Virus record (IMG/VR): IMGVR_UViG_3300034521_000108
Coordinates: 1-29,209 of that record
Reading direction: 5' to 3' (one strand)
Length of the DNA stretch: 29,209 bases
Source of the DNA: a virus
The notes under the pieces are model-generated. The model worked only from the letters and a program-made list of their open reading frames with translations. It did not search any database and had not been told where the DNA came from. The translations under genes and the position numbers were made by a program. The stretch's first letter is position 1. The number at the start of each line of letters is the position of its first letter. Positions 3,981-28,994 of this stretch are shown piece by piece.

Positions 3981-4674
3981 TCATTGCCTCCAGTGCGCTG
4001 AGATCACTTCCTGTGAAAAGAATGGCTGCAGTATGTACCGCATCCGGATGGGGGATATTTTTTACCAGCTCCACAACCGTAGTCGTCGCCGGCCCTGTCA
4101 TATTGAAAAACCAGACTTTAGCCGATTTCGCCTGCAGTTCCGTCACCCCGCTTGCGATGTCTGCCAGTGCGGCCGTTCGCTCCTGAAGAAAGCCCGCCAG
4201 CCCGGTGGTGATCGAACTCACGCTGGCAGCTGCGGCCGCTTCAAGTTTTGCAGCCTCTACACGCGCAGCATTCAGTGCCTGCCGTGTCGTTTCCGTTGCA
4301 ACGGTAATCGGGGAAGGTAATGAAGAACGCACATCAGGCAGCAGCATTTTCACCTGTTCCAGTTCACCAAACGACTGTGCCAGCCGGCGCACCTGTTTCA
4401 GCTCCGGCATGGGCAGCACTGAAGCGACGGAATCAAGGGATGAAAGCAAATCGCTGTGCGTGTTTTCACACAGCATCATGATGATATTGTGTGAGCCGGC
4501 CCCTTTCTCCAGCAGGCGTTTACCCAGATAAGAAACAGCATTTAACGGGCTGAGATACCCCCCTGACTGGGTATGCTGCCCGAGCTCCGGCACCCAGGGG
4601 TGGGCAGGAATAACACTGCAGGATAGTGAGGATAATTGCGCCGGAATACGCAGTGTTCCCTGCTGCCAGCTCAT
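3973..4674 (-). CDS. Phage tail protein, function unknown
   Basis: 233 residues in the distal tail cluster, overlapping the next gene by eight bases and sharing a TAATG with the fibre assembly gene upstream. The middle (about 125-175) is an alanine-rich helical, probably coiled-coil segment (NAARVEAAKLEAAAAASV), flanked by globular ends. No catalytic motif or membrane segment is evident. By position it corresponds to one of the last tail genes of HP1-type phages, possibly a hub-associated or injection protein. The assignment is by context only. Confidence 0.5.
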   Translation of the reverse strand: MSWQQGTLRIPAQLSSLSCSVIPAHPWVPELGQHTQSGGYLSPLNAVSYLGKRLLEKGAGSHNIIMMLCENTHSDLLSSLDSVASVLPMPELKQVRRLAQSFGELEQVKMLLPDVRSSLPSPITVATETTRQALNAARVEAAKLEAAAAASVSSITTGLAGFLQERTAALADIASGVTELQAKSAKVWFFNMTGPATTTVVELVKNIPHPDAVHTAAILFTGSDLSALEAMIG

Positions 4675-4907
4675 TATGATTGCTCCGGTAATTCAGTGTC
4701 AGGTACCGCAGAATTCCCGGTCAGTACTGGCTTACCATTCCTTGCAACGATGACGGTTTTCCCTGATTCCTGTCCTGCCATTAGCTGGGAATAAAGCTCA
4801 GGAGCAATTTTTATTGCATCATCAGGCCAGGTTCCTGCTCTTTCATACAATGTCTGTAATGCTTCTGCGTAAAAAGCATTATTCGCTGCGCTGTAAAAAT
4901 AGTTCAT
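4674..4907 (-). CDS. Short tail fibre assembly protein (Tfa-like)
   Basis: The product from ATG 4907 has 77 residues: MNYFYSAANNAFYAEAL followed by AGTWPDDAIKI. That YFYSA...FY...GTWPDDA pattern is the N-terminal domain of tail fibre assembly chaperones (P2 gpG, lambda Tfa), which help fold the fibre tip. Family members are usually 130-200 residues; the C-terminal part is missing here, though the frame ends cleanly and overlaps the next gene, so this is a naturally short form or an old truncation. It starts one base after the fibre stop, so it is likely coupled to it. The longer upstream reading (from 5183) overlaps the fibre gene and is not used. Confidence 0.75.
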   Translation of the reverse strand: MNYFYSAANNAFYAEALQTLYERAGTWPDDAIKIAPELYSQLMAGQESGKTVIVARNGKPVLTGNSAVPDTELPEQS

Positions 4908-4908
4908 A

Positions 4909-7251
4909 TTAATATCCTCTCGCTTCCCAAAAAATATCTCCAGAACGCGCATCACCTTCATTACCATTAGACTGGAATACGACAATGGCAGACGTATTAT
5001 TCTGGGCATCTCCCCACGAACTGAGCATTGTCTGGTTATTCGCCATCTTTGTACTGCGCCTGATTGAAGTTTTGAACGAAATGCAGGCATGAGGAAATGC
5101 GGTTGGAAAATTGAGTGATGCCGGCGAATCATCACCGACGTCTCTGACCAGTCCCCACTGAACGATTTCCCCGGTCGAGCCATCTAGTTTCCAGCCAGTT
5201 ATCCCCAGTGAAGCAAAATTTCTTTTCTGTAACTGAACGACAGCATTGGAATCTTTATGGCGAATATAAGGACTATTGACATCATTCAGCGCAAAACCCG
5301 CAAATGTCGCCCCATCGAGTTTAATAAACCGTTCATCCGACCATGGCTGGCTGGCCATGGTCCCCGCAGGACCAACGATATTGCCATTGTTTAACAGCAC
5401 CCAGGTACGGGTAAAACCGTCATTGTCAGTCATTACAAGGGCAAAACCAGTATCGTGTGGACTAGAGTCAGGAGGGCAATAAACACCCACGCCTGCCTCC
5501 AGAACCCATTTTCCCGCTGTATTTTTTGCCTTCAATGCCGAAAACTTTGACACTGAATCGGGAGTGATATCCGTTTCGGCCAAATATCCGTTGGTAGCTA
5601 CCGAGTTGTACATCCCGGGATAGACCTTCGATTTGTATAACGGTTGTTCACTCCCGCTGGTCACCACATTCCCGGTATTTGAGCCAATCACCAGCCCCAG
5701 AAATGCGCACAATTGAGCAACATTCTTTCCACTAAGATTATTCAGGGTGTTATCGAGTGGCTGCTTGCCCGCCAGCGCGTTAAGCATGGTTGTTGCAAAA
5801 TGCGGGTCATTGCCCAACGCAGCAGCCAGTTCATTCAAAGTATCAAGCGCCGCCGGTGACGAACTGACTAACGCCGCTATGGCCAGATTGACAAACTCCG
5901 CAGTGGCCAGCGGAATAACCAGATTAGATTCAGCATGACGCAGATAGGGTTTTGTCGCGTCGTTGCTATCAAACCCGACAAAAAGTGCACCATCCGATTT
6001 AATGTATTCTCGCCACGGCCCCCATGGGCCATTCACCCCATTCCATGGTGCACCAAGCCCGCGAACAAATTTTCGGCAATCACTAAATGTCGTGTATTCC
6101 TGCTGACAACCATAGGCAGAGGGCGTCACCAGCAGTGAGCCTGCCTGTAATACCGGATAGTTATTTACGCTTGTTGCGTTAGCATTCATTTCCTGGAAAT
6201 AGACGCCAGCCGCCTGTGCGGATCCCAGTGTATTTAAATCAACTGCCAGTGGGGTTTTAGTCACCTGCAGCGCGTTCACAATCCGAGTGTCATCACCTGC
6301 TGCCACCGTTCCTGGTGTACTTCCCACATCAAGTAATGCCGCACCTTTTAACTCCAGTGCGTTACGGGCATCAGCTTTATTGGCCACATCGTTGAGATTA
6401 TTTTCTTGTTTCAGAAAAGCGGCGTTTTTACGTAAATCTGTAACAGAGCCATCAGCATTGATTTGTGCGACCGCAAAAACGAAATGATTTACGTCATTTT
6501 TCTCGTAATCAGCCAGCGTATCAGCCACGGTAACCACCGTACTGACCTGCCAGACACTGGTCAGTGTTCCGGTAAAACTTGTATCAACCCAGACTTTTAC
6601 CGGTTTATTGGCGACAGTCAGCGCCTGATCTGTCGCTAGTTTGGCACGCAGCCCACCGACATAACCAGCACCCGCAGTCACGCTGTAATTGTTCCCGGAA
6701 CGCTTAACCAGAAAACTATCCCCGATAAATGCGCCGGCGCCATAAACATCGATATTTTCAACCCGGAGGCGCTCATCCATCCCTGCCAGACGCGCAGTAA
6801 AATCAATCTGCCAGGTTTGCGCCGGCGTGGTGATATTTGTCTGTTTTTTGGCACCGTCATATTCCATCAGAAACGAGCGGGTCAGGACGTTTCCCTGCAC
6901 ACCGGCTGCATTGGCCACTTTGCTTTGAACGGGGGCATGGACAATCATCGCCACTACATTCGACGTTTTGTTGACCAGACCAACCCAGTTGAAATCAAAA
7001 TCCCCCACGGCCGTGCCAAGGGTTACGGAATAGACAACCGCGTTATCGTTTACGACGCCGGTTAAAGCCACATCAGCACGATGCACAATCTGCGCGTCAG
7101 GGGGAATAGCTTCATTTGGATCAATCGGTGAAGAGATATCCAGATTGGGGACATTGGCAAAAATAAACCCGTCCAGCACTACGGCTTCCCCCGTTACCGC
7201 CTGCTGGGCCTTCAGTTGTTCAAACGCACTGGTAATCACTGTCTGTGACAT
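4909..7251 (-). CDS. Tail fibre protein (gpH-like)
   Basis: 780 residues. The N-terminal ~160 residues (MSQTVITSAFEQLKAQQAVT, later DFDFNWVGLVNK) match the tail-collar attachment domain (DUF3751-type) of P2 gpH-like fibres. A pyocin-knob-like module follows at about 340-420 (LNTLGSAQAAGVYFQEMNAN, GPWGPWREYI). The C-terminal domain (GWKLDGSTGEIVQWG to DIFWEARGY) is the gp53-like tip that should bind the host surface. There is an internal duplication: residues beginning SDGALFVGFDSNDATKPYLRH resemble LDGATFAGFALNDVNSPYIRH some 250 residues later. This protein sets host range. The fibre lies 20 bases after the gpI-like gene and is followed by its assembly protein. Confidence 0.9.
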   Translation of the reverse strand: MSQTVITSAFEQLKAQQAVTGEAVVLDGFIFANVPNLDISSPIDPNEAIPPDAQIVHRADVALTGVVNDNAVVYSVTLGTAVGDFDFNWVGLVNKTSNVVAMIVHAPVQSKVANAAGVQGNVLTRSFLMEYDGAKKQTNITTPAQTWQIDFTARLAGMDERLRVENIDVYGAGAFIGDSFLVKRSGNNYSVTAGAGYVGGLRAKLATDQALTVANKPVKVWVDTSFTGTLTSVWQVSTVVTVADTLADYEKNDVNHFVFAVAQINADGSVTDLRKNAAFLKQENNLNDVANKADARNALELKGAALLDVGSTPGTVAAGDDTRIVNALQVTKTPLAVDLNTLGSAQAAGVYFQEMNANATSVNNYPVLQAGSLLVTPSAYGCQQEYTTFSDCRKFVRGLGAPWNGVNGPWGPWREYIKSDGALFVGFDSNDATKPYLRHAESNLVIPLATAEFVNLAIAALVSSSPAALDTLNELAAALGNDPHFATTMLNALAGKQPLDNTLNNLSGKNVAQLCAFLGLVIGSNTGNVVTSGSEQPLYKSKVYPGMYNSVATNGYLAETDITPDSVSKFSALKAKNTAGKWVLEAGVGVYCPPDSSPHDTGFALVMTDNDGFTRTWVLLNNGNIVGPAGTMASQPWSDERFIKLDGATFAGFALNDVNSPYIRHKDSNAVVQLQKRNFASLGITGWKLDGSTGEIVQWGLVRDVGDDSPASLNFPTAFPHACISFKTSIRRSTKMANNQTMLSSWGDAQNNTSAIVVFQSNGNEGDARSGDIFWEARGY

Positions 7252-8979: not shown

Positions 8980-9301
8980 AGTCAATTCCCTGTGAGAGTG
9001 GTCCGAAATCGTAGGTATCTGCAGTGACAAAGAGCCTTGTGGTACTTTCTTCTGTGACCACAGCCGTACCCGGAACAATGCGTTCGTCATCTTCAATCAG
9101 CAAAATCATCTGGGTGAAAATGTCACTGCGCAGCGTAGGGCTTCGCTCGGCGATCAGCGCGGTGGCCAGCCCGCTTTCCATAATGGCGTGAACCAGATCC
9201 TGTCCGATGCTGTAGCGGTTATTACAGAGCACCGGCTCATTGCCGGCATTCAGTGCGATATCCCCGCCAGTGATCAGCAGGTCTATGAATAGCGCGTTCA
9301 T
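8960..9301 (-). CDS. DUF2590-type baseplate protein (gp25/gpW-like position)
   Basis: 113 residues from ATG 9301, which shares an ATGA with the tape measure stop. The sequence (MNALFIDLLITGGDIALNAG, YSIGQDLVHAIMESG) is typical of the DUF2590 family found between tape measure and baseplate J in HP1/K139-type phages. By position and size it takes the place of P2 gpW/T4 gp25, a wedge protein at the start of sheath assembly. The upstream reading from 9319 would enter the tape measure gene and is not needed. Confidence 0.7.
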   Translation of the reverse strand: MNALFIDLLITGGDIALNAGNEPVLCNNRYSIGQDLVHAIMESGLATALIAERSPTLRSDIFTQMILLIEDDERIVPGTAVVTEESTTRLFVTADTYDFGPLSQGIDYGNAET

Positions 9302-11493
9302 CCCTGTGTCTCCTGCCATTCACGTAAAAGTGCCGGCGTTGGCATCTGCTGCACCTGAATAGTCGTGTTGCCAAACGTTTTACGCTGGTCGATGGTGGTC
9401 TGACCGTTACTTACTGCGCCTGCAGCCTGAACGCCATTTCGTCCAACACCCTGCGCGGTACCTCCGGTCAGCAATTCAGGTGCCAGTGAGGCTGGCACTG
9501 CAGGATGAGCCTGGGCAGTCTGCATCAAATCAATGTCAATACCCGGTAACTTGTTAAGCCCGCTCACTATCCAGTTAAACGTATCGCTGAAGCTGGCTTT
9601 AATGACCTGCCACAATCCGGAGAACATATTGCCAATCGCCGAACTCATATTTTTGAACGACTCAATCGGCGATGAGAGGTTGAAAGCAGCAATAACCTCC
9701 AGCCATCCCTGCTTAATAATGCCTATTGCGTCAAATAAATGACCCGTCCAGGTGATAACCAGCTGAATGGGTGACAGGATCAGACCAATGGCCTGCGCCA
9801 CGAACTGGCCACATGCCACGCCCGCACTGGTTACACCCTGGAGTTCTGCGGCGCTGGACTGGATGGGGGAAATCAGATTAACAAACCAGCCAAACAGCGC
9901 TTTAACCGTGTTCCATACTCCGGATATCGCACGACCAATCAGGCTGAATACACCATCAAACGGCGAAAGTGATCCGGCTGCCTGAATAAAACCATCAATA
10001 AAACCGCTGATGAACGCCTTAATCGGTTGCCAGCAGGCATAAACCGCCAAGCCCAGTCCGGCTATCACCGCAATCACGGCCAGCACAGGCCACAGCAGGC
10101 TGGTAGTCGCAATACCTGCGGCCCCCGTGGCAATGGAGTACGCCAGCATTGCACCACGGATAAACGTCATTGTGGCGCGAAAAGCCAGCATGGCTTTGTT
10201 ACTCACCCACAATGCTGCGGTATAAATGCGTACGGGCAACGTTACTGCGCCCCATGCCGCGCGAAATGCCAGCAATGACAATTGCCCGGCGCCCAGCATC
10301 AGATTGACAGCCGCACCTGCAGCTGTCGCACCAATGATGGCCATAACAACCAGCCCGATAGATTTGGTGATATGCGGGAATAATTCCTGCCAGCGCATAA
10401 ATTGTTTGCCGGTATCAGCCACGCCGTTCAGCAACGGATAAATCGTCGGTAACAGCGTGCTACCAATGACGATCCTGACAGCGTCCATGTAAGCGGTGAG
10501 CCGTTCCCAGGGATCCACCATGTTTTTCGCCATTGCCACGGCTTTGTCCAGGCTGTTCGTTGAGCCAATGGCAACAATATTGTCCTTCAGCTGCCCGGTG
10601 TTATTTATCAGTAGCTTAATCATGGCCACAGCTTCATCGGATCCAAACGCCTTTTTGATGAGATCAGAATCAGCAACTTTACTCAGGTCACCGTATTTCC
10701 CCCGGATCAGCTCCAGTATCTGCGGCGTGGACTTCATGCGCCCGGAGGCGTCCGTAAACTGCAGCCCCAGCGTTTTCGCTGCACCACCGACGCCGGCAAG
10801 GAAAGACTTGTATTTAGTCCCGGCCTCCGAACCCGACATGGTGGCCTGCAGCTGACCGAGAACCGCGAACTGTTCTGACACATCCGCACCGGCGGACGTC
10901 GCTGACGCCCCCAGCGCAGTGAATGCCCCGGACATTTCGTTACCTGTGGTTTTGAACATCTGCACGGCATACGCCGTTTTGCCGGCAATCGCGTTAACCC
11001 AGTCAGCATTGCCCATTGCATCAGCGTCTTTTTTGAAGATGCCGTACATGGTGCCCATGTAGTTGGTGATGGTGGCCGCATCGGATTTCGTGGCTTTAGC
11101 CAGCACGCTCGAGGCGTTAGTGAATGCAGCCAGATCGTTGCCGGCGAGGCCAGAAATCGCCGACTGGATATCGTAGGAAGATTTGACGAAATCGGCGGCG
11201 CTGCCACCGTACTCGATAGAGAAATTCATCGCCGCATCACGCAATGCGTTCAGCGCGTTCTCGGCGGTACCCAGGCTTCGTACTTCACCCAGCGCCATGT
11301 TCATTTCGTGCGCCGGCTGCAGTACCGCTTTGATGCCCATCCCTACACCAAGCAGTCCGGCACCGCCGACCGCAACATTGGCAAACGCCTGCCGGGAAGC
11401 ACCAGCAAAGCCCTTAACCCCGGCCTCTGCCTGTTTCAGCGGCCGGGTAATTTTATCAATCAGTGAGAGGGTAAAGTCGAGTTGTGCGCTCAT
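9298..11493 (-). CDS. Tail tape measure protein
   Basis: 731 residues, the second-largest late gene after the tail fibre. The N-terminal third is the TP901-like core (AGGAGLLGVGMGIKAVLQPA, then LGEVRSLGTAENALNALRDA), followed by the helical 'SFLAGVGGAAKTLGLQFTD' region. Four or so long hydrophobic segments lie between about 375 and 490 (GLVVMAIIGATAAGAAVNLM, VLAVIAVIAGLGLAVYACW), as expected of a protein that enters the host inner membrane. The length sets the tail at roughly 110 nm by the usual 0.15 nm per residue. It overlaps the chaperone -1 frame stop (ATGA) and the next gene. Confidence 0.92.
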   Translation of the reverse strand: MSAQLDFTLSLIDKITRPLKQAEAGVKGFAGASRQAFANVAVGGAGLLGVGMGIKAVLQPAHEMNMALGEVRSLGTAENALNALRDAAMNFSIEYGGSAADFVKSSYDIQSAISGLAGNDLAAFTNASSVLAKATKSDAATITNYMGTMYGIFKKDADAMGNADWVNAIAGKTAYAVQMFKTTGNEMSGAFTALGASATSAGADVSEQFAVLGQLQATMSGSEAGTKYKSFLAGVGGAAKTLGLQFTDASGRMKSTPQILELIRGKYGDLSKVADSDLIKKAFGSDEAVAMIKLLINNTGQLKDNIVAIGSTNSLDKAVAMAKNMVDPWERLTAYMDAVRIVIGSTLLPTIYPLLNGVADTGKQFMRWQELFPHITKSIGLVVMAIIGATAAGAAVNLMLGAGQLSLLAFRAAWGAVTLPVRIYTAALWVSNKAMLAFRATMTFIRGAMLAYSIATGAAGIATTSLLWPVLAVIAVIAGLGLAVYACWQPIKAFISGFIDGFIQAAGSLSPFDGVFSLIGRAISGVWNTVKALFGWFVNLISPIQSSAAELQGVTSAGVACGQFVAQAIGLILSPIQLVITWTGHLFDAIGIIKQGWLEVIAAFNLSSPIESFKNMSSAIGNMFSGLWQVIKASFSDTFNWIVSGLNKLPGIDIDLMQTAQAHPAVPASLAPELLTGGTAQGVGRNGVQAAGAVSNGQTTIDQRKTFGNTTIQVQQMPTPALLREWQETQG

Positions 11494-11950
11494 TTGTCAC
11501 CGTTCAGTGCCAGCGCGATACCGCTTGCCACGGACTTGCGCATGTTCTCCCAGTGACGGTTATCCAGCCAGATGGCCGCAGCAATGCTGTCAGGATCGTC
11601 GCCGTCCGCTGGCAACCAGTGGCGGCGCAATATCAGATACTGCGCCAGCCCGTTATCATCAATAGCCCGGACCCGGGCCGTCAGTTTTTTACTTCGATTT
11701 CCAGCTCAGGCACAAACTGCTCATTCACCTTGGCGGCCAGCTGCAGCGGAACTCCCGGTTTTTCCAGCAGCTTATCAAGTGCCTCTTTACACTCTGTCGC
11801 GACGATACGGCGCAGATAATTATGGGACGGGGCCACTTTGTTATCCGGCATCAGCTCATTGATATATTTGTTATAAGCTGGAGTCGTTGGCAGAAACTTC
11901 AGCTCTGTACCGCAGACAACCAGAGTGACCACATTGTTTTCTTTACTCAT
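11490..11950 (-). CDS. Tail assembly chaperone, long form made by -1 frameshift
   Basis: If ribosomes slip by -1 at the A AAA AAC heptamer (11690-11684), translation leaves the short frame at its last codon and continues as LTARVRAIDDNGLAQYLILR to a TGA at 11492-11490, giving about 153 residues. The extension is fully open for 64 codons, has no start codon of its own near its beginning with an SD, and its stop overlaps the tape measure start (ATGA). This is the E/E' arrangement of P2 and the G/GT arrangement of lambda: the two forms coat the tape measure during tail assembly. The site, frame and position are seen directly; use in the cell is inferred. Confidence 0.82.
11681..11950 (-). CDS. 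Tail assembly chaperone, short form
   Basis: 89 residues from ATG 11950 (MSKENNVVTLVVCGTELKFL), just upstream of the tape measure. Size, position and the frameshift site at its last sense codon mark it as the P2 gpE-type chaperone, although the sequence is not obviously gpE. The longer reading from 12055 begins in the spanin genes and adds a hydrophobic stretch from another frame, so it is not used. Its start overlaps the Rz1 stop by eight bases. Confidence 0.75.
   Translation of the reverse strand: MSKENNVVTLVVCGTELKFLPTTPAYNKYINELMPDNKVAPSHNYLRRIVATECKEALDKLLEKPGVPLQLAAKVNEQFVPELEIEVKN
11684..11690 (-). other. -1 ribosomal frameshift heptamer A AAA AAC
   Basis: On the minus strand the sequence GTA AAA AAC TGA ends the short chaperone frame. 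A AAA AAC is an X XXY YYZ heptamer in the right phase, among the most efficient slippery sequences in E. coli. The stop directly after it would promote slippage. Confidence 0.85.
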
Positions 11951-13100: not shown

Positions 13101-13556
13101 TCAGCCAATCAGGTTGCGTACGTCATCACTGGACAGATACGGCACACCATTAATCTTGATGAACTCCGGAGAGGTCACGAAAAACTTCGCCTTGTGCGTC
13201 AGCGTTGAACCACCTTTAGGATCGATATCCAGCAATGAGGTCACCACAAGTTTGCAGCCGAATGCCTCCACCTTAAGCTCTTCATCACCCGCTTTGGCAT
13301 ACCACATGGCATCAAACTCCGGGATGGCCCGCCATGAGCCAGCACGCGCGGCCATCGGGGTAAGCTGGTCTTTCAGTACCCGGGAAGAAAACTCCACTTC
13401 ACCATCTGCGGCCACGTCCCCGGAAACAGAGCCATCCGGTACGCCGCGAGTCTGTGCTGCAGCAGTGTTGTCGGTGATATCGAGAGAAATTTTGTCGAAA
13501 TGGATCAGTTCACCGGCAAAATTGCAGTCAACAGACTGACCAGAAATACGTCCCAT
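13101..13556 (-). CDS. Tail tube protein (DUF2597-type)
   Basis: 151 residues starting MGRISGQSVDCNFAGELIHF, a pattern I know from the DUF2597 family placed directly after the DUF2586-type sheath in HP1/K139-type phages. The order sheath-tube is the usual one (P2 FI-FII), and the gene shares a TGATG with the sheath stop, so translation is coupled. It forms the inner tail tube. The sequence is unlike P2 FII, so the identification rests on family recognition and position. Confidence 0.75.
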   Translation of the reverse strand: MGRISGQSVDCNFAGELIHFDKISLDITDNTAAAQTRGVPDGSVSGDVAADGEVEFSSRVLKDQLTPMAARAGSWRAIPEFDAMWYAKAGDEELKVEAFGCKLVVTSLLDIDPKGGSTLTHKAKFFVTSPEFIKINGVPYLSSDDVRNLIG

Positions 13557-15082
13557 CAGGCATTACCTCCCTGTAAGCTCAAATCCAGCATCACGGACGC
13601 CTTGATGCCTTTCGGGCAGTCATAGGTACGTACAATGATGTAAATCTCCACCTGTGTTTTAGTGCGCCAGAGAATTTGCACATCACCATCCTGTGGTGGC
13701 ATACACTCCCCCGGGAACGTCACACCCTGAATACGCACCGTTTTGGACATCTCACGCATGGGTGCGGCGAAATATTGCTGATGCGTCGCAATGCTGGTTG
13801 GCGTGGAGTTCAGCGCACGGTCGGAAATTTTCGGGATGGCCAGCAGGCGAACGCGGCGACAGACTTTATCGATAACGCGTTTGTTCTCAATCGCCTGAAA
13901 ATCGCCCCCCTCAACATCAAGCGTGACGCCGTCAGCCCAGTAGTACCCGTCATAATCCGGATACCACATTGGTACCGAGAAACGCGCCTTATTCAGCGCC
14001 TGCAGCGTGGCAAGTCCCAGTTCCACACCGTCTTTATCCACTGGCAGTTTGCCGGTAACGTTCAGTCCGACCACCGGGCCGGTTTTAACGCGGGACGGAC
14101 TGTCAGCGATAGTGACGGCACGATTGCAAAGGCGACCGACATACCCCCCCGGCTCTGCGCCAAACAGACGCGGAACCAGCGTTACGCTGCTTTCAGCGAC
14201 ACCCTGCTGGTACGCCGTGACACGGGAGAGATAGTCAGCCCAGGATTCTGTCGAGGGCACAATGCCCTGGACGGAAAGATACACATGCACCCAGCGCTGC
14301 CATTTCGCGTTAATGTCCGCAATCAGGCTACTGGCGCGCAGAATATCCGCCTCGCTGGCGATATCGTCACTGACCAGAACCCCTTCCACCGAACAGACCG
14401 CCATCGCCGCTTCTGCCGCACTGGCAAAGGTGACTGCCGGCTCATCTTCATTCAGGATCCAGACATAGCCAAACCAGTTATCGCCGGCATTACGCATCGC
14501 AGCCTGAAGGTCTGTTTTAAACACACTGTCGCCAGCGCCAAGCAGTTGATCAAAGTCCGTCTGGGTATTGACCGGGATGACCTTGTTAGCGTTCGGTACC
14601 GATGCACCGGCTGTACCCGGGGTGACGGTCGCGCCGGCGGCGTTAGTCAGCTTCAGCAGTGGACCAATATCAGTCCCGGGCGATGCAGCACCGGCAACGG
14701 TGATTGTCGCGGCTGCGCCGGTCGTCAGGGTCGTCACCACAAAGCGTCCGGCAGCATCATCCCAGTTCACCGTGGCCAGCGAGCTGAGTTTTGCCTGCAG
14801 TTCGGTGGCGACCTGCGCAAGCGTAGTGACAGCAGACAAATCAACACCGGTAATATTCTTTTCAGTGCCGTTGATTGTCAGCTTCAGGGCACCATCACTG
14901 ACGGCCGTAAATTTAGCAATGGCTTTGTCTGCCGTTGCCAGCGTCCCGCCGGTCAGTATCGCTGCCGTAGCAGCGCCACCGGTGGCTTTCAGTGAGCCGA
15001 TGAATAACATCACCCGCTCGATTTCTTTGGTTTCGCCCTGCAGCTGGTTGAGCTGATCGACGTCTACAACAGGCCAGGCCAT
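13556..15082 (-). CDS. Tail sheath protein (DUF2586-type) with inserted domain
   Basis: 508 residues. The core of the contractile sheath begins MAWPVVDVDQLNQLQGETKE and ends with the beta-rich C-terminal part (VQILWRTKTQVEIYIIVRTY). Residues about 33-170 are an extra, alanine/threonine-rich module (SDGALKLTINGTEKNITGVD, then ATVNWDDAAGRFVVTT) similar to the repeat domains seen in DUF3383-type sheath and fibre proteins; it is likely a surface decoration. The gene lies two bases before the gpS-like gene. Sheath identity follows from size, position before the tube and family likeness. Confidence 0.8.
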   Translation of the reverse strand: MAWPVVDVDQLNQLQGETKEIERVMLFIGSLKATGGAATAAILTGGTLATADKAIAKFTAVSDGALKLTINGTEKNITGVDLSAVTTLAQVATELQAKLSSLATVNWDDAAGRFVVTTLTTGAAATITVAGAASPGTDIGPLLKLTNAAGATVTPGTAGASVPNANKVIPVNTQTDFDQLLGAGDSVFKTDLQAAMRNAGDNWFGYVWILNEDEPAVTFASAAEAAMAVCSVEGVLVSDDIASEADILRASSLIADINAKWQRWVHVYLSVQGIVPSTESWADYLSRVTAYQQGVAESSVTLVPRLFGAEPGGYVGRLCNRAVTIADSPSRVKTGPVVGLNVTGKLPVDKDGVELGLATLQALNKARFSVPMWYPDYDGYYWADGVTLDVEGGDFQAIENKRVIDKVCRRVRLLAIPKISDRALNSTPTSIATHQQYFAAPMREMSKTVRIQGVTFPGECMPPQDGDVQILWRTKTQVEIYIIVRTYDCPKGIKASVMLDLSLQGGNA

Positions 15083-19610: not shown

Positions 19611-19651
19611 GCAACCTGTTGCCATCACGTCAGAATGGTCGAAAAGGAACT

Positions 19652-21448
19652 ATGGCCAGAGGGAACATGGCACAAAAATATTCAGAGGAAATCAGGGACG
19701 TCGCCCGCGCCCTGTATCTCAAACGATGGACACCGCAGGAGATCAAAGAGGAGCTGCGGCTTCCCAGCGTGCGCATCATCTACTACTGGGCCGAGAAGTT
19801 CAGCTGGCGTGACTTGCTGAGCGAGGAAGGTGTTGAGGCAGCATTATCCCGTCGCATCCAGGTACTGACAGACCGTGATGGCAAATCGCAGCTCGAGCTG
19901 CAGGAGCTGGACCAGCTCGTTGGCCATCACGTAAAACTGCTGGCACAACGTGCAAAACGGGAAGAGAAGCTCCTGCAGCTGCAGCACCTGCAGGAGAGTG
20001 GCAAATCATGCGCTGATGGTACCCTCACGGATGAAGGTACCAGCCAGCAACGCAAAGGCCGTAAGCGTAAAAATGACGTCAGTGAAATTACCGCTGACAG
20101 CTTTAACGAGTGGGTGTCGGTACTGTTTGGGTACCAGCTGACGCTGCGCGAAAACCTGCATCAGAAAATCCGTAACATCCTCAAAGCCCGCCAGCTCGGT
20201 GCCACCTGGTATTTTGCCGGCGAGGCACTGGAAGACGCGATACTTAATGGAAAGCCACAGGTTTTCCTGTCAGCGTCCAAACGCCAGGCAGAAGTATTCC
20301 GACGCTATATCGTGCAGATAGCGCATAAATTTCTAGGCATCGAGCTGACCGGTAACCCGATACGCCTGAGCAACGGCGCTGAGATGAGTTTTCTCGGTAC
20401 CAACAGCAATACAGCCCAGTCGGAAAGTGCCAACGTCTATATCGATGAATATTTCTGGATCCCGAAATTCCGCAAGCTGAACGACGTTGCATCGGCGATG
20501 GCCACACACGACCACTGGCGCATCACCTACTTCTCCACGCCCAGTTCAAAAGCGCATGAAGCTTACCCGTTCTGGACCGGGGATGAATGGCGACGCGGCC
20601 GGTCAGAGCGAAAGAACATTGAATTCCCGACCGAGGCTGAACTGCGTGACGGCGGCAGGCTGTGCCCGGATAAGCACTGGCGCTTTATTGTCACGATCGA
20701 AGACGCGGTAAAAGCCGGATTTAATCTGGCGAACGTTGATGACCTGCGCGACCGTTACAGTGGCCCGGCCTTCGACATGCTGTTTATGTGCGTGTTCGTG
20801 GACGATAAGGATGCCGTTTTTGCCTTCGACCAGCTGATGAAATGCGGTACCGACCCGGGACTATGGCAGGATTTTAAACCTGATGAGGCGCGGCCGTTTG
20901 GCAACCGGGAGGTCTGGGGCGGGTACGATCCAAGCCGAACCACCGACAATGCGACATTTGTCGTTATCGCGGTACCACTGTACGCCGCCGAAAAGTATCG
21001 GGTACTGCGAAAGTGGGTCTGGACGGGCCTCTCATTCAAGTTTCAGGCCGAGCAGATAAAGAAAATTAAAGAAGCGTACAACCTTACCTACATCGGGATC
21101 GATGTCACCGGCATCGGTGCCGGCGTATTCGATATTGTCAGCGCGTTTGCGCCCCGGGAGGCTGTTCCTATCCACTACAGCGTGGAGAGTAAAAACCGCC
21201 TGGTCCTGAAGATGATCGACGTGGTTGGCGGCAACCGTATCGAGTGGGACCGTGAAGACAAAGACATTGCGGCCAGCTTTATGGCCATCAAGCGCACCAC
21301 CACCGCCAGCGGTAACGCCATGACGTTCGTCGCCACGCGGTCACAGGAAACCGGCCACGCAGATTCATTCTGGGCGATATCCCATGCCATGCAGAACGAA
21401 CCGCTGAACACCGAACATAAACGCAAATCGAGATGGGTCCTTGGATGA
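19652..21448 (+). CDS. P: Terminase large (ATPase) subunit P
   Basis: 598 residues from ATG 19652 (SD AAAAGGA); an ATG at 19667 is the alternative, and the TTG at 19619 is poor. About 10-45 is a helix-turn-helix (ALYLKRWTPQEIKEELRLPS). The ATPase has KARQLGATWYFA (about 178-189) in place of a standard Walker A and VYIDEYFW (about 262-269) as Walker B, both as in P2 gpP. The C-terminal nuclease-like part includes VWGGYDPSRTTDNATFV and YIGIDVTGIGAG. It powers packaging into the prohead, with M cutting at cos. It shares an ATGA with the portal gene. Confidence 0.93.
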   Translation: MARGNMAQKYSEEIRDVARALYLKRWTPQEIKEELRLPSVRIIYYWAEKFSWRDLLSEEGVEAALSRRIQVLTDRDGKSQLELQELDQLVGHHVKLLAQRAKREEKLLQLQHLQESGKSCADGTLTDEGTSQQRKGRKRKNDVSEITADSFNEWVSVLFGYQLTLRENLHQKIRNILKARQLGATWYFAGEALEDAILNGKPQVFLSASKRQAEVFRRYIVQIAHKFLGIELTGNPIRLSNGAEMSFLGTNSNTAQSESANVYIDEYFWIPKFRKLNDVASAMATHDHWRITYFSTPSSKAHEAYPFWTGDEWRRGRSERKNIEFPTEAELRDGGRLCPDKHWRFIVTIEDAVKAGFNLANVDDLRDRYSGPAFDMLFMCVFVDDKDAVFAFDQLMKCGTDPGLWQDFKPDEARPFGNREVWGGYDPSRTTDNATFVVIAVPLYAAEKYRVLRKWVWTGLSFKFQAEQIKKIKEAYNLTYIGIDVTGIGAGVFDIVSAFAPREAVPIHYSVESKNRLVLKMIDVVGGNRIEWDREDKDIAASFMAIKRTTTASGNAMTFVATRSQETGHADSFWAISHAMQNEPLNTEHKRKSRWVLG

Positions 21449-23387: not shown

Positions 23388-26045
23388 TTATTTCTCCCGG
23401 CTAAATATCCAGCAACGGAATGTATCCGGCATCCGCTGCATATCCCCTTTACCACGATTATGGCGCTCACTTACCGTGCTGCGCGTGGTACTTTGTCTGA
23501 TGAACCGCCGTTCATTACCGTTTTTAAGCAACTTTTTAATTTCCGTTAAAGTGAACGGAATCCGCTGCCGGTGTGCTGCTGCAACTTCTTCCATATGGTT
23601 GAAATTAATTGCAATTTCATTTTCATCTGATGAATGATTGACGCCATAGGGTGCCAGTTCATCCAGGTAATCAAACAAATCCCAAAACTCCTGTACCATC
23701 GGGTGATCCTTTTTAAGCGCCTGACAACGTTCAATGGCCAGCGCGGTGATGGCTTCGCGCGTTTTTTCTATGCGTTCTACCGGTACCGGCACAACAAGCG
23801 CAAGCGCCTCCAGCAAGCCCACAAGCTGAGCGTGATTCTTTGCAATACGGATATGACGAATATTGCTGTTAGACTCCAGCGCATTCCTGGCGCGTTCGTA
23901 TCCCTTACCGAACGTCTGCATGATTTCTTTTTCTCGCATGGTGGCCAGTAGGGTAAATCCGGATACCTGGCTAACTGGGAGTTGTTCCAACCGCTCAGCA
24001 GCGTGGCGCGTCTGAATAGACTGCCCGCGTTTGTCGGTATATATATGGATAATACGCTCCAGAAACGCCTTGCTGCCGTCTGTATCAGCGTTCTGTGCAA
24101 TCACAATACTGCCCCTGAAAGGTGGTTCGTATGTCTCGTTATTGTTGGATTTTATCCCCACAGCACGGGAAGCACGGCCGTTATACAATGATTTCAGTTC
24201 ATCCCAGTCAAAAGCGCGTTGCTTGGCGTTATCCGTGGTACGATCGCCTTCGATTAACACAACCGGCAAGTTGCCGACCTGGGCAAAGTTACGCCCACGT
24301 GCTGCGGCCGTGGATTTAGAAGGATCAAAACCTTCGTATTCTTCACGGCCGGCGAGCTTCCACAGAAATTCAATCAGTGTGGATTTACCTGTCCCCGGTT
24401 CACCCACGATTTCCAGAAACGGGAATGACTTATCGCGCTCCCGGATTTGTTCAGCAAAAAGCGACCCCAGCCAGAATGCCAGCGCCACGTATCCCTTTTC
24501 ACCAAATGCCGTCCAGATATCGTCAATCCAGCCCGTGGTAAATTCATTCAGCTTTGGATTCAGATCCAGCGACGGTGTCAGGCTCAGGCTTTTTACACTG
24601 GCGTGATTGATTTCAAAATAGTCTTCATCGTTCATCTCATACAGTCGACCATCGCACACGGCCACACGGTTAAACAGCCACGCTGAATAATCTTTGTTGT
24701 AGCCAATAAAGTTCTGTGTCTTAACCTCTTTTATTTCAGGAAGCCGCATCTGGATGAACTTATCCAGTTGCTTGGTGCTGCCGGTGTATACCGCCCCTTT
24801 GGCGATATGTAGCAAACGTTTCTTAAACTCGGCGGAGCTGGTGAGCTGGTTCGCCGTGAAGGTATCCTTCACCGCTGGCCGGTTCGGCATGTTGACCTTA
24901 ACGTAATACCAGGACTCGTCAGTAGGTTCAGAACGCTGGAAATAGAGCGGAGTCAGCCAGCAGTTAGCTATTTCGGTCACACCGCCAGATTCTTTCACAG
25001 CCCGTTCTTTGGCTTCCCAGTCCTGGATAACTTCGGTACCGGTATTACTGATTCGTTCATAGGCTCGCATGTACCTGTCCAGATCCAGTTCAAACCAGTA
25101 CATGCGGGAATTGTGTTCAAAATAGAACGAATGCCACTCATTATGTTGATGCATGAGCAGCGCTTTTTCTGTCGGGCTTTTCGCCAGCAGAATATCGCCA
25201 TAGTAGCGATAATTTTTGATGTCCGATTTGCTGAACCGGCCACGCAGCAACAAGTCATTCCAGTCCATGCTGGAGGATGATTTAACCGGCTGCGCCGCGC
25301 GAACTTTCCAGCCAGCATCCTCACTACGGGCGGCGAACGCCAGCGTATGCTTTGTGCCGGCTTTATCACCATCAAATGCCCATACAAGGCGTGGGCGCGG
25401 TTTTTCGCCCAGTTCTTTGGCCAGCATATCCAGTGCTGCCAGCGGGTAGTTGTTACTGCTCAGTGTGGCAACCGCGGGTAAACCTGCCTGGCAAAGACTC
25501 AGCGCATTAAATATCCCCTCAGTGATCCAGATTTCGTTCACTTCCAGCAGATTGACAGAAGGTGGCACCCACCAGTGACCGACATAGCTCCCTTTAATAT
25601 TGGCTTTTTGCTTACCAAAGCGTTGGGGCTGGTCAATAATGCGCTCCCACGTCGCACCACATGCCAGCTTAAATTTGACTGTTGCCGATCCCATGCCATC
25701 TTTAACAAACGCGCCCTGAGTGAAAATGCCTTTCAGTGGTTCGGTATCCAGCCCTCTGGCCTCACGCAAATACGCCTCAGCAGCTGCGTGTGGGGTTTCC
25801 GGCGTGTCCTGATACCGCTTAGACCAGTCCTCAAAAATATCCGGGTACAGCTCTTTAACAACGACCTGATGGCCGCAGTTATTTTCGCGGCCACACTTCA
25901 GAATCCAGGGCTTATCTATGCTGGTGAATAATTCGCGCTTACGACACTTAGGGCATACACCCTGCTGCAAATACTTATCCCGCTCTTTAAACTCAAAATC
26001 CTGAACAAGACGGCGCACAACGTCCTGTTGTATCGTTGCGTTCAT
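23388..26045 (-). CDS. Replication protein: zinc finger, Toprim primase and ATPase/helicase
   Basis: 885 residues from ATG 26045; the frame opens 12 codons earlier, but MNATIQQDVV is the likelier start. Domains: a zinc site with C31-X2-C34 and C51/C57/H59; a Toprim fold with EIWITEG (171-177) and WAFDGDKAG (222-230), whose Glu and DxD hold metal; and an ATPase with Walker A GEPGTGKST (548-556) and Walker B-like VVLIEGD (595-601). The layout is that of phage primase-helicases related in plan to P4 alpha. It replaces the rolling-circle initiator gpA of P2, so replication is probably theta-type from an origin it recognises. The iteron array at 801-1083 is a candidate partner. The end overlaps nothing; the zinc-finger gene starts three bases on. 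Confidence 0.88.
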   Translation of the reverse strand: MNATIQQDVVRRLVQDFEFKERDKYLQQGVCPKCRKRELFTSIDKPWILKCGRENNCGHQVVVKELYPDIFEDWSKRYQDTPETPHAAAEAYLREARGLDTEPLKGIFTQGAFVKDGMGSATVKFKLACGATWERIIDQPQRFGKQKANIKGSYVGHWWVPPSVNLLEVNEIWITEGIFNALSLCQAGLPAVATLSSNNYPLAALDMLAKELGEKPRPRLVWAFDGDKAGTKHTLAFAARSEDAGWKVRAAQPVKSSSSMDWNDLLLRGRFSKSDIKNYRYYGDILLAKSPTEKALLMHQHNEWHSFYFEHNSRMYWFELDLDRYMRAYERISNTGTEVIQDWEAKERAVKESGGVTEIANCWLTPLYFQRSEPTDESWYYVKVNMPNRPAVKDTFTANQLTSSAEFKKRLLHIAKGAVYTGSTKQLDKFIQMRLPEIKEVKTQNFIGYNKDYSAWLFNRVAVCDGRLYEMNDEDYFEINHASVKSLSLTPSLDLNPKLNEFTTGWIDDIWTAFGEKGYVALAFWLGSLFAEQIRERDKSFPFLEIVGEPGTGKSTLIEFLWKLAGREEYEGFDPSKSTAAARGRNFAQVGNLPVVLIEGDRTTDNAKQRAFDWDELKSLYNGRASRAVGIKSNNNETYEPPFRGSIVIAQNADTDGSKAFLERIIHIYTDKRGQSIQTRHAAERLEQLPVSQVSGFTLLATMREKEIMQTFGKGYERARNALESNSNIRHIRIAKNHAQLVGLLEALALVVPVPVERIEKTREAITALAIERCQALKKDHPMVQEFWDLFDYLDELAPYGVNHSSDENEIAINFNHMEEVAAAHRQRIPFTLTEIKKLLKNGNERRFIRQSTTRSTVSERHNRGKGDMQRMPDTFRCWIFSREK

Positions 26046-26084
26046 ATATAATCCATGTGTGAAATGATGAATAAAAGGCAAAAA

Positions 26085-27935: not shown

Positions 27936-28001
27936 TTGTTTGTTTTTTCTATGCGTTAAATCAAAAGTTACATAATGACGCAGATATCGGAGGGCTTCGC
28001 T

Positions 28002-28994
28002 ATGTCGATTAAGAAGCTCGATGATGGTCGTTTTGAAGTGGACGTAAGACCGCGCGGAACTTCAGGGAGAAGGATTCGTCGCAAATTTAGTCGTAAAGCG
28101 GAGGCTCAGGCATATGAAAAGTATGTTCTGACAAACTTCCATGATAAAGAGTGGCAGGACAAACCCGCAGACAGAAGACTACTGTCTGATTTGATTGCTA
28201 TATGGTGGAGTTACCACGGAAAGAATCACAATTATGGTGACTCATATAAAAAGCGCCTGGATAAAATCAATCGCGAAATGGCCGAACCCAGAGTGTACGA
28301 ACTTACCCGTAACTTTTTGATGAAACATCGTGCAGAAAGACTTCATAGCGGAGTCTCGGCCGGAACGGTTAACAGGGATTTCTGTGTTATGTCCAGCATG
28401 TTCAGTCTGTTGATCGATATGGAGGAGTTTCACCACGAAAACCCATTCCATACTGTGAAGAAACTGCGTCTGGAAAATACAGAAATGTCGTTTCTGTCAG
28501 AAGAAGAAATCCGCAACTTGCTGAATGCTCTTACCGGGGATGACCGCAGGGTTGTCGTTCTGTGCCTGAATACAGGTGCACGATGGGGAGAGGCCAGTAA
28601 TCTCAAAGCTGAACACGTTATAAGTAACCGTGTTACGTTTGTTAAGACTAAAACAGGCCCAGCTCGTACCGTACCGATATCAAAGGAAATCGCGGACTAT
28701 ATCCTCACGCGCAAATCGGGGAAATTATTCGATACCAACTATGAACGGGTTCGTGATGTTCTTCGTAGGATAAAGCCAGACTTACCGAAAGGTCAGGCAT
28801 TGCATGTTTTACGCCATACCTTTGCAACGCATTTCATGATCAACGGTGGAAATATCATCACGCTACAGCGCATTCTGGGGCATACGACAATTGAGCAAAC
28901 AATGACATATGCACACTTCGCCCCCGATTATCTGACTGATGCAATACGCTTTAATCCAATGCGCGGGAGTGTCCACATAATGTCCATGAACTAG
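28002..28994 (+). CDS. int: Integrase, tyrosine recombinase of P2 type
   Basis: 330 residues from ATG 28002, chosen for its SD (CGGAGGG) and for the start MSIKKLDDGRFEVDVRP, which matches P2 Int; the frame opens earlier at 27975. Catalytic residues: R194 (TGARWGE), K217 region (VKTKTG), H268 and R271 (LHVLRHTFATHF), H294 (ILGHT) and Y303 (MTYAHF). It recombines attP in the raiA-pheL gap. It follows C in the same direction, so lysogenic transcription covers both. It ends just before the arm sites and attR. Confidence 0.95.
   Translation: MSIKKLDDGRFEVDVRPRGTSGRRIRRKFSRKAEAQAYEKYVLTNFHDKEWQDKPADRRLLSDLIAIWWSYHGKNHNYGDSYKKRLDKINREMAEPRVYELTRNFLMKHRAERLHSGVSAGTVNRDFCVMSSMFSLLIDMEEFHHENPFHTVKKLRLENTEMSFLSEEEIRNLLNALTGDDRRVVVLCLNTGARWGEASNLKAEHVISNRVTFVKTKTGPARTVPISKEIADYILTRKSGKLFDTNYERVRDVLRRIKPDLPKGQALHVLRHTFATHFMINGGNIITLQRILGHTTIEQTMTYAHFAPDYLTDAIRFNPMRGSVHIMSMN
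28970..28990. promoter_or_regulatory. Candidate integrase arm-type sites, attR side
   Basis: TGTCCACATA (28970-28979) and TGTCCATGAA (28981-28990) are 11 bp apart and overlap the end of int. The same 10-mer lies at 171-180 beside attL. Confidence 0.55.

Follow-up and report, generated by a model that had tools for sequence, protein, structure and literature searches.

The tail assembly chaperone gene of a virus contig of 29,209 nucleotides (IMG/VR record IMGVR_UViG_3300034521_000108, positions 1 to 29,209; this whole stretch is called the window below) lies directly ahead of the tail tape measure gene, and the question raised by this locus is whether the gene encodes one protein or two. An earlier note on the window had proposed a -1 frameshift at the heptamer A_AAA_AAC, which would give a short and a long chaperone. 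Comparison with relatives supported a -1 frameshift joining the chaperone to a second domain as by far the best reading of the locus. Very probably, the chaperone gene of this phage, a member of the HP1 subgroup of Peduoviridae, is translated with a programmed -1 ribosomal frameshift.

All parts of the locus are on the minus strand. The short, zero-frame form of the chaperone (PF10963, Phage_TAC_10) occupies 11681..11950, from an ATG at 11950 to a TGA at 11683-11681, and comprises 89 amino acids plus the stop. The slippery heptamer (11684..11690) is in phase with this frame and is followed directly 3' by the TGA (gt A AAA AAC TGA, heptamer and stop at 11690-11681), as had been proposed. The -1 frame opens with CTG at 11684, where the last heptamer base is re-read, and runs for 64 codons plus a stop (11490..11684); residues 19-62 of this extension match PF21830 (DUF6890). 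Its TGA (11492-11490) overlaps the ATG (11493-11491) of the tape measure gene in an ATGA at 11493-11490. The tape measure protein of 731 amino acids (9298..11493) is encoded directly downstream and matched PhageMin_Tail (E 6e-32) and phrog_28 (E 3.3e-97). The open -1 frame, its overlap and the predicted lengths of 89 and 153 residues (89 + 64 = 153) thus agreed with the earlier note. AAAAAAC was found 11 times on both strands of the window, with 5.6 expected. Because the motif is not rare there, the heptamer alone proves nothing; as judged from the sequences, its evidential weight is that of its phase, its position and its conservation.

Conservation was studied in 154 loci, namely the window, 22 loci from phage records, 97 from viral contigs and 34 from named genomes; the window's own copy (L023) was left out. 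For viral contigs, the best 80 of 345 confirmed loci of the larger scan were retained. The 154 loci collapsed to 133 distinct regions and, at 80% protein identity, to 36 clusters. An in-phase A_AAA_AA[A/C/G] was found at the end of the chaperone frame in all 154 loci, so that the conservation of heptamer and phase in relatives, which had been named as a check, was confirmed. The last heptamer codon was AAC in 133 loci, AAA in 20 and AAG in one. The stop followed the heptamer directly in 151 loci, after one sense codon in one locus and after seven in two, and the extension was in the -1 frame in 153 loci. An in-frame fusion had appeared at SMHB1, L9-1 and ValB1MD-2 from the ends of tblastn matches; the short match had ended one codon early, and all three are -1.

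To avoid selection by likeness to the window, a second sample of 35 loci was drawn via Pfam models; three of the 33 places in the main table gave no locus. Seven of the 35 loci were shared with the first set (two of these being one place), and 28 were new. The heptamer was present in 34 of the 35, including 27 of the 28 new ones; the stop followed at once in 29 of these 34 and 1 or 12 codons later in five. The -1 extension was likewise present in 34, the exception (L177) being cut by a contig end.

The codons forming the heptamer also differed from codon choice elsewhere. The codon lending the first heptamer base ended in A in all 36 clusters (GTA in 30, CTA in three, and TTA, GCA and ATA in one each), whereas A was the third base of 577 of 2,772 other codons, and GTA made up 41 of 220 other valine codons. 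The middle codon was AAA in 36 of 36 clusters, compared with 111 of 168 lysine codons elsewhere. The last codon was AAC in 25 clusters, AAA in ten and AAG in one; where it encoded asparagine, it was AAC in 25 of 25 cases and never AAT, compared with 120 of 214 elsewhere. The first base of the heptamer is the third position of a mostly valine codon, where the encoded protein leaves the choice of base largely open, and yet it is A in every cluster. Given such conservation across the loci, a chance origin of the arrangement is untenable.

The -1 frame itself behaved as a coding frame. It was without a stop over 55 codons in all 36 clusters, whereas the other two frames contained stops, except for one frame of L022, and the extension was 59-64 codons long in every cluster. 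Among 76 pairs with at least 65% identity, differences at codon positions 1, 2 and 3 numbered 917, 630 and 2008 in the -1 frame, which is a pattern similar to that of the short frame (858, 603 and 1749). This substitution pattern indicates that the extension is under selection as a protein. PF21830 was matched by all 36 aligned extensions at E <=0.01. In a set of 295 genomes of one order, PF10963 and PF21830 were found in the same 26 genomes, and each of the 32 PF21830 places followed a PF10963 match at a distance of 53-62 bases and in the -1 frame; this spread tracked where the PF21830 profile match began. The sole PF10963 place without PF21830 in these genomes was a locus at a contig end. 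Since PF21830 was found solely behind PF10963 in the -1 frame, DUF6890 reads as a frameshift-encoded domain whose model starts close to the start codon chosen by annotators. In wider scans, PF21830 was present in 2 of 369 genomes from across a class and PF10963 in 6 of 398 genomes from across a phylum; a near match to the region was found in one of 5,426 E. coli genomes, covering 7%, and none was found among plasmids.

The rival explanation that survived best, which is still very unlikely, is that no frameshift takes place and DUF6890 is a small gene in its own right, started inside the -1 frame. The extension is given as a separate hypothetical open reading frame in 6 of 21 annotated records, and the PF21830 model starts at residue 19 of the window extension, the same place as the first possible start (TTG, codon 19). 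Moreover, in 12 of the 36 clusters codon 4, 5 or 13 is an ATG, GTG or TTG. However, the other 24 have no such codon before codon 16 (two have none at all), and codons 2-16 taken alone were still constrained, with 207, 205 and 550 differences at the three positions. Because this constraint precedes the usual starts, translation most likely includes these codons, a slip being the simplest way for ribosomes to enter them. A separate gene would also leave unexplained both the conservation of the heptamer and the fixed register behind PF10963 at all 32 places.

Downstream of the heptamer, a putative stimulatory stem-loop was found at 11645..11675 of the minus strand, with arms at 11675-11668 and 11652-11645, a 15-nt loop and an 8-nt spacer after the heptamer. 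Spacers of 5-9 nt are described as usual for stimulators in such studies in the text of PMC5009743. With the heptamer as columns 1-7, the stem corresponds to columns 16-23 against 39-46. It was studied in 27 sequences, namely 19 Enterobacterales loci from among the 34 named genomes, seven enterobacterial phage records and the window; L004 was omitted, being identical to L002 there. In these sequences 89.4% of the stem cells were paired, whereas slid versions of the stem reached at most 44%. The covariation score was 0.347 against 0.235 +/- 0.021 in shuffles, none of 500 being as high; pairs changed on both sides numbered three, which was reached by 58 of 500 shuffles.

The stem emerged from position-specific tests; its position was picked after looking, and the tests were therefore made over all stem positions. 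The null to be trusted is the synonymous one that preserves relatedness, even though codon usage is not retained in it, since nulls of independent sequences overstate significance for related sequences. Against it, the stem was the best of all 8-bp stems tested, a score that null maxima reached in 0 of 3,000 replicates with the 27 sequences, 0 of 3,000 with 19 thinned sequences and 2 of 3,000 with 10. Over all 36 clusters, with a null of independent sequences, the stem neighbourhood had a z of 4.9, the highest of 300 null values being 4.49; the stem is carried by some lineages only. The stem-loop probably raises the slip rate in the Enterobacterales members.

Taken alone, the stem of the window was weak. 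Seven of its eight pairs form, as in eight relatives compared with L024, the twin whose shift region is identical to that of the window; P was 0.08 for L024, and the minimum-energy fold of the window adopts a pairing that overlaps the stem. The minimum-energy z-score was -2.17 for a 66-nt stretch of the window. As evidence of general downstream structure, such z-scores were unconvincing alone (mean -0.8 over 36 clusters, +0.65 for L024), and RNAalifold gave almost no consensus structure for 99 distinct stretches. A Shine-Dalgarno-like stimulator ahead of the heptamer was assessed by duplex energies, which ranged from +0.2 to -6.4 kcal/mol over the 36 clusters with no clear common strength; no sequence motif was sought. 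A rival G+C-rich hairpin about 4-5 nt past the heptamer was seen in L027, L046, L047, L057, L071 and L133 (in L046 and L047 by eye, in the rest from folds). This nearer hairpin might take the place of the conserved stem or compete with it.

A second rival explanation, less probable still, is transcriptional slippage, in which RNA polymerase would alter the mRNA at the poly-A run and so give the -1 product. Polymerase slippage can occur on A runs, and the text of PMC3711429 mentions runs of more than seven A; the run in the window has only six. Slippage of this kind needs no tandem-slip heptamer, whereas the conserved one mostly ends in C, and a downstream RNA stem is kept in the Enterobacterales members. 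That the extension is a decayed remnant with a -1 frame open by chance, as the broken extension of L135 and the lost heptamer of L187 could suggest, is the least credible explanation and is close to refuted by the frame being open in 36 of 36 clusters, by change dominated by third positions and by PF21830 scoring above its cut-off in just those 26 of 295 genomes that hold the chaperone.

Returning to the programmed ribosomal frameshift, the arrangement is already known as the G/GT-type frameshift of lambda and P2. Lambda is an unrelated phage with another heptamer, G_GGA_AAG. It resembles the present locus in having an abundant short chaperone and a rare -1 product with a second domain, as described in the text of PMC5009743. 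According to the same text, the ratio of short to long form in lambda is 30:1, and P2 and related phages frameshift 2- to 3-fold more. TP901-1 uses GGGAAAG (PMC4493119), and for two genes of a cluster of HK97-like chaperones, frameshifting was measured at 6 and 7% (PMC3711429). As for E/E+E' of P2, this phage also belongs to Peduoviridae and has, in the slot before the tape measure gene, a -1 shift giving a short chaperone and an extension that overlaps the tape measure start (PMC3931495; annotation of NC_001895). However, the P2 heptamer is T_TTT_TTG instead of A_AAA_AAC, and six sense codons precede the stop.

A direct precedent within the HP1 subgroup is gp36/gp36a of Pseudoalteromonas phage ACA1 (OR438928), which are of the same family and whose record note cites HP1 and PF10963. 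The joined coding sequence is annotated there as a 'projected programmed frameshift analogous to that in phage P2'; it differs in its heptamer, A_AAA_AAA, which is separated from the stop by seven sense codons. The main text of PMC10612066 contains neither 'slippery' nor 'tail assembly chaperone', and its lone 'frameshift' concerns another gene. Phages ACA2 and proACA1-A, with two chaperone features each, probably also have the joined form. Haemophilus HP1 and HP2 (orf26), Vibrio K139 (orf30) and Cronobacter ESSI-2 have homologues in which A_AAA_AAC abuts the stop and a -1 extension is present; their records annotate the short form at most and leave the extension unannotated. Besides the six annotated records with a separate extension, 13 of the 21 gave the short form only, one gave neither form and one, ACA1, gave the joined form; a further record carried no annotation. 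The expectation that annotation would miss the long form was thus correct for 20 of the 21 annotated relatives and failed for ACA1. A better gene model is hereby obtained for this subgroup of P2-like phages and prophages, together with a likely role for the orphan Pfam family DUF6890; the general picture of tail assembly is unchanged. The link between DUF6890 and tail chaperones and the stem-loop were not mentioned in anything found by full-text literature searches on DUF6890, tail-chaperone frameshifts and HP1/P2 phages.

Several observations speak against the frameshift as proposed here. P2 gpE had no detectable sequence relation to the PF10963-type short form (hhalign probability 0.1 against the single P2 sequence), and the equivalence with E/E+E' therefore depends on position and logic. 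The extension of L135 has an indel that breaks its frame. Loss of the heptamer with intact frames, which the earlier note had held to tell against the proposal, was seen in one copy, L187 (G004:C20:58694-59112), which reads GTA AAG AAC TGA and retains an intact -1 extension; all other loci keep the heptamer. L187 is the second prophage copy in a Vibrio genome, and the first copy (L075/L171) keeps the heptamer. With a null of independent sequences, the stem was not detected in the Aeromonas-type (eight sequences, z -1.65) or Vibrio (nine sequences, z 0.02) groups. Within the Vibrio group no stem exceeded its 95% null quantile. In the Aeromonas-type group, marked by LTxRAE, other best stems gave z 5.3-5.5, above the 95% null quantile of 3.94 and below the null maximum of 6.28; their pairing was mostly low (0.22-0.34, one 0.69), and no stem is claimed there. 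Finally, A_AAA_AAC is reported in the text of PMC5009743 to be much less slippery than A_AAA_AAG in E. coli, so that the word 'textbook' applied to this heptamer is apt for mammalian ribosomes and not for E. coli. A low frameshift efficiency is therefore to be expected. Among the 36 clusters AAC (25) and AAA (10) prevail over AAG (one), which fits a long form made at a low ratio to the short one, as in lambda.

That ribosomes slip in cells, how often they do so and what the two products do is inferred here, as follows. Most ribosomes would read gtA AAA AAC TGA and terminate, giving the 89-residue chaperone. In a minority of ribosomes, the tRNA-Lys and tRNA-Asn paired with AAA AAC would slip one base back to A AAA AA; these ribosomes would bypass the stop and add the 64 residues containing DUF6890, giving a protein of 153 residues encoded just ahead of the tape measure gene. 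If the products act like lambda gpG/gpGT, the tape measure protein would be coated by many short copies, and a few long ones would use their extension to bring in the tube protein. In combination, it is reasonably likely that DUF6890, a family of unknown function with a model truncated at its start, never forms an independent gene and is supplied by the frameshift as the second domain of tail chaperones of the HP1 subgroup, that A_AAA_AAC, weak in E. coli, is tuned by the conserved stem-loop 8 nt downstream in Enterobacterales phages, and that members from Vibrio and Aeromonas rely on a different stimulator or on none. The groups with and without the stem, together with the copy lacking the heptamer, form a natural series for studying how the ratio of short to long form is set.

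The assignment of both products to protein families was clear. The short form matched PF10963 with E 2.9e-36 and 123.9 bits (cut-off 25.7) over the whole profile (1-82 of 82), and the extension matched PF21830 with E 1.5e-22 and 79.5 bits (cut-off 23.6), also over the whole profile (1-44 of 44). No NCBIfam family was found for either. The AlphaFold2 model of the short form (pLDDT 90.6) aligned with 3fgx_A over 84 residues with Z 10.3 and rmsd 2.3, the next row having Z 4.1. The entry 3fgx, from structural genomics, is called a 'tail assembly chaperone' in the text of PMC9603447 and 'uncharacterized' in its table. As far as the model goes, the short form shares its fold with tail assembly chaperones. 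Matches of the short form to designed pentatricopeptide-repeat proteins in the PDB, with E down to 1.5e-12, included no single stretch that passed and were judged to be a repeat artefact.

The extension was predicted by AlphaFold2 to be a three-helix domain (pLDDT 89.3), with helix 1 entirely and helix 2 mostly ahead of the start of the PF21830 model. Comparison of its structure with BFVD gave 41 matches at E up to 10, none of them at or below 0.001, and no match under E 0.34 was found among PDB sequences. Scans of the window with Rfam at the gathering cut-off and for tRNAs gave no matches.

The source record is a virus contig, and by its tail families and nearest records the phage belongs to the HP1 subgroup of Peduoviridae, that is, to the HP1/ESSI-2 kind. 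HP1-type tail families in the window were PF10772 (Phage_HP1_Orf24), PF10758, PF10761 and PF10963. The nearest records were Peduoviridae such as Evevirus, Quadragintavirus and Seongnamvirus, and the nearest relatives among the named genomes were Buttiauxella and Cedecea prophages with 70% protein identity. Upstream of the chaperone gene are those for the spanin, endolysin, holin, tail tube and sheath, and downstream are the tape measure and baseplate genes.

The tail sheath (13556-15082, minus strand) comprises 508 amino acids, compared with 375 for the sheath of ESSI2_ev239, and has about 130 extra residues near 31-163; its main family-profile match starts at residue 160. The extra stretch is possibly an inserted surface domain. 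An open reading frame of 169 codons (4674-5183, minus strand) overlaps the gene for the 780-residue tail fibre (4909-7251, minus strand). Since its match to tail-fibre assembly proteins is limited to residues 87-158, its real start is probably near the stop of the fibre gene. A protein of 897 residues (23388-26081, minus strand) with Toprim and weak ATPase-domain matches is presumably a replication protein. The plus strand carries the genes for a terminase of 609 residues (19619-21448) and an integrase (27975-28994).

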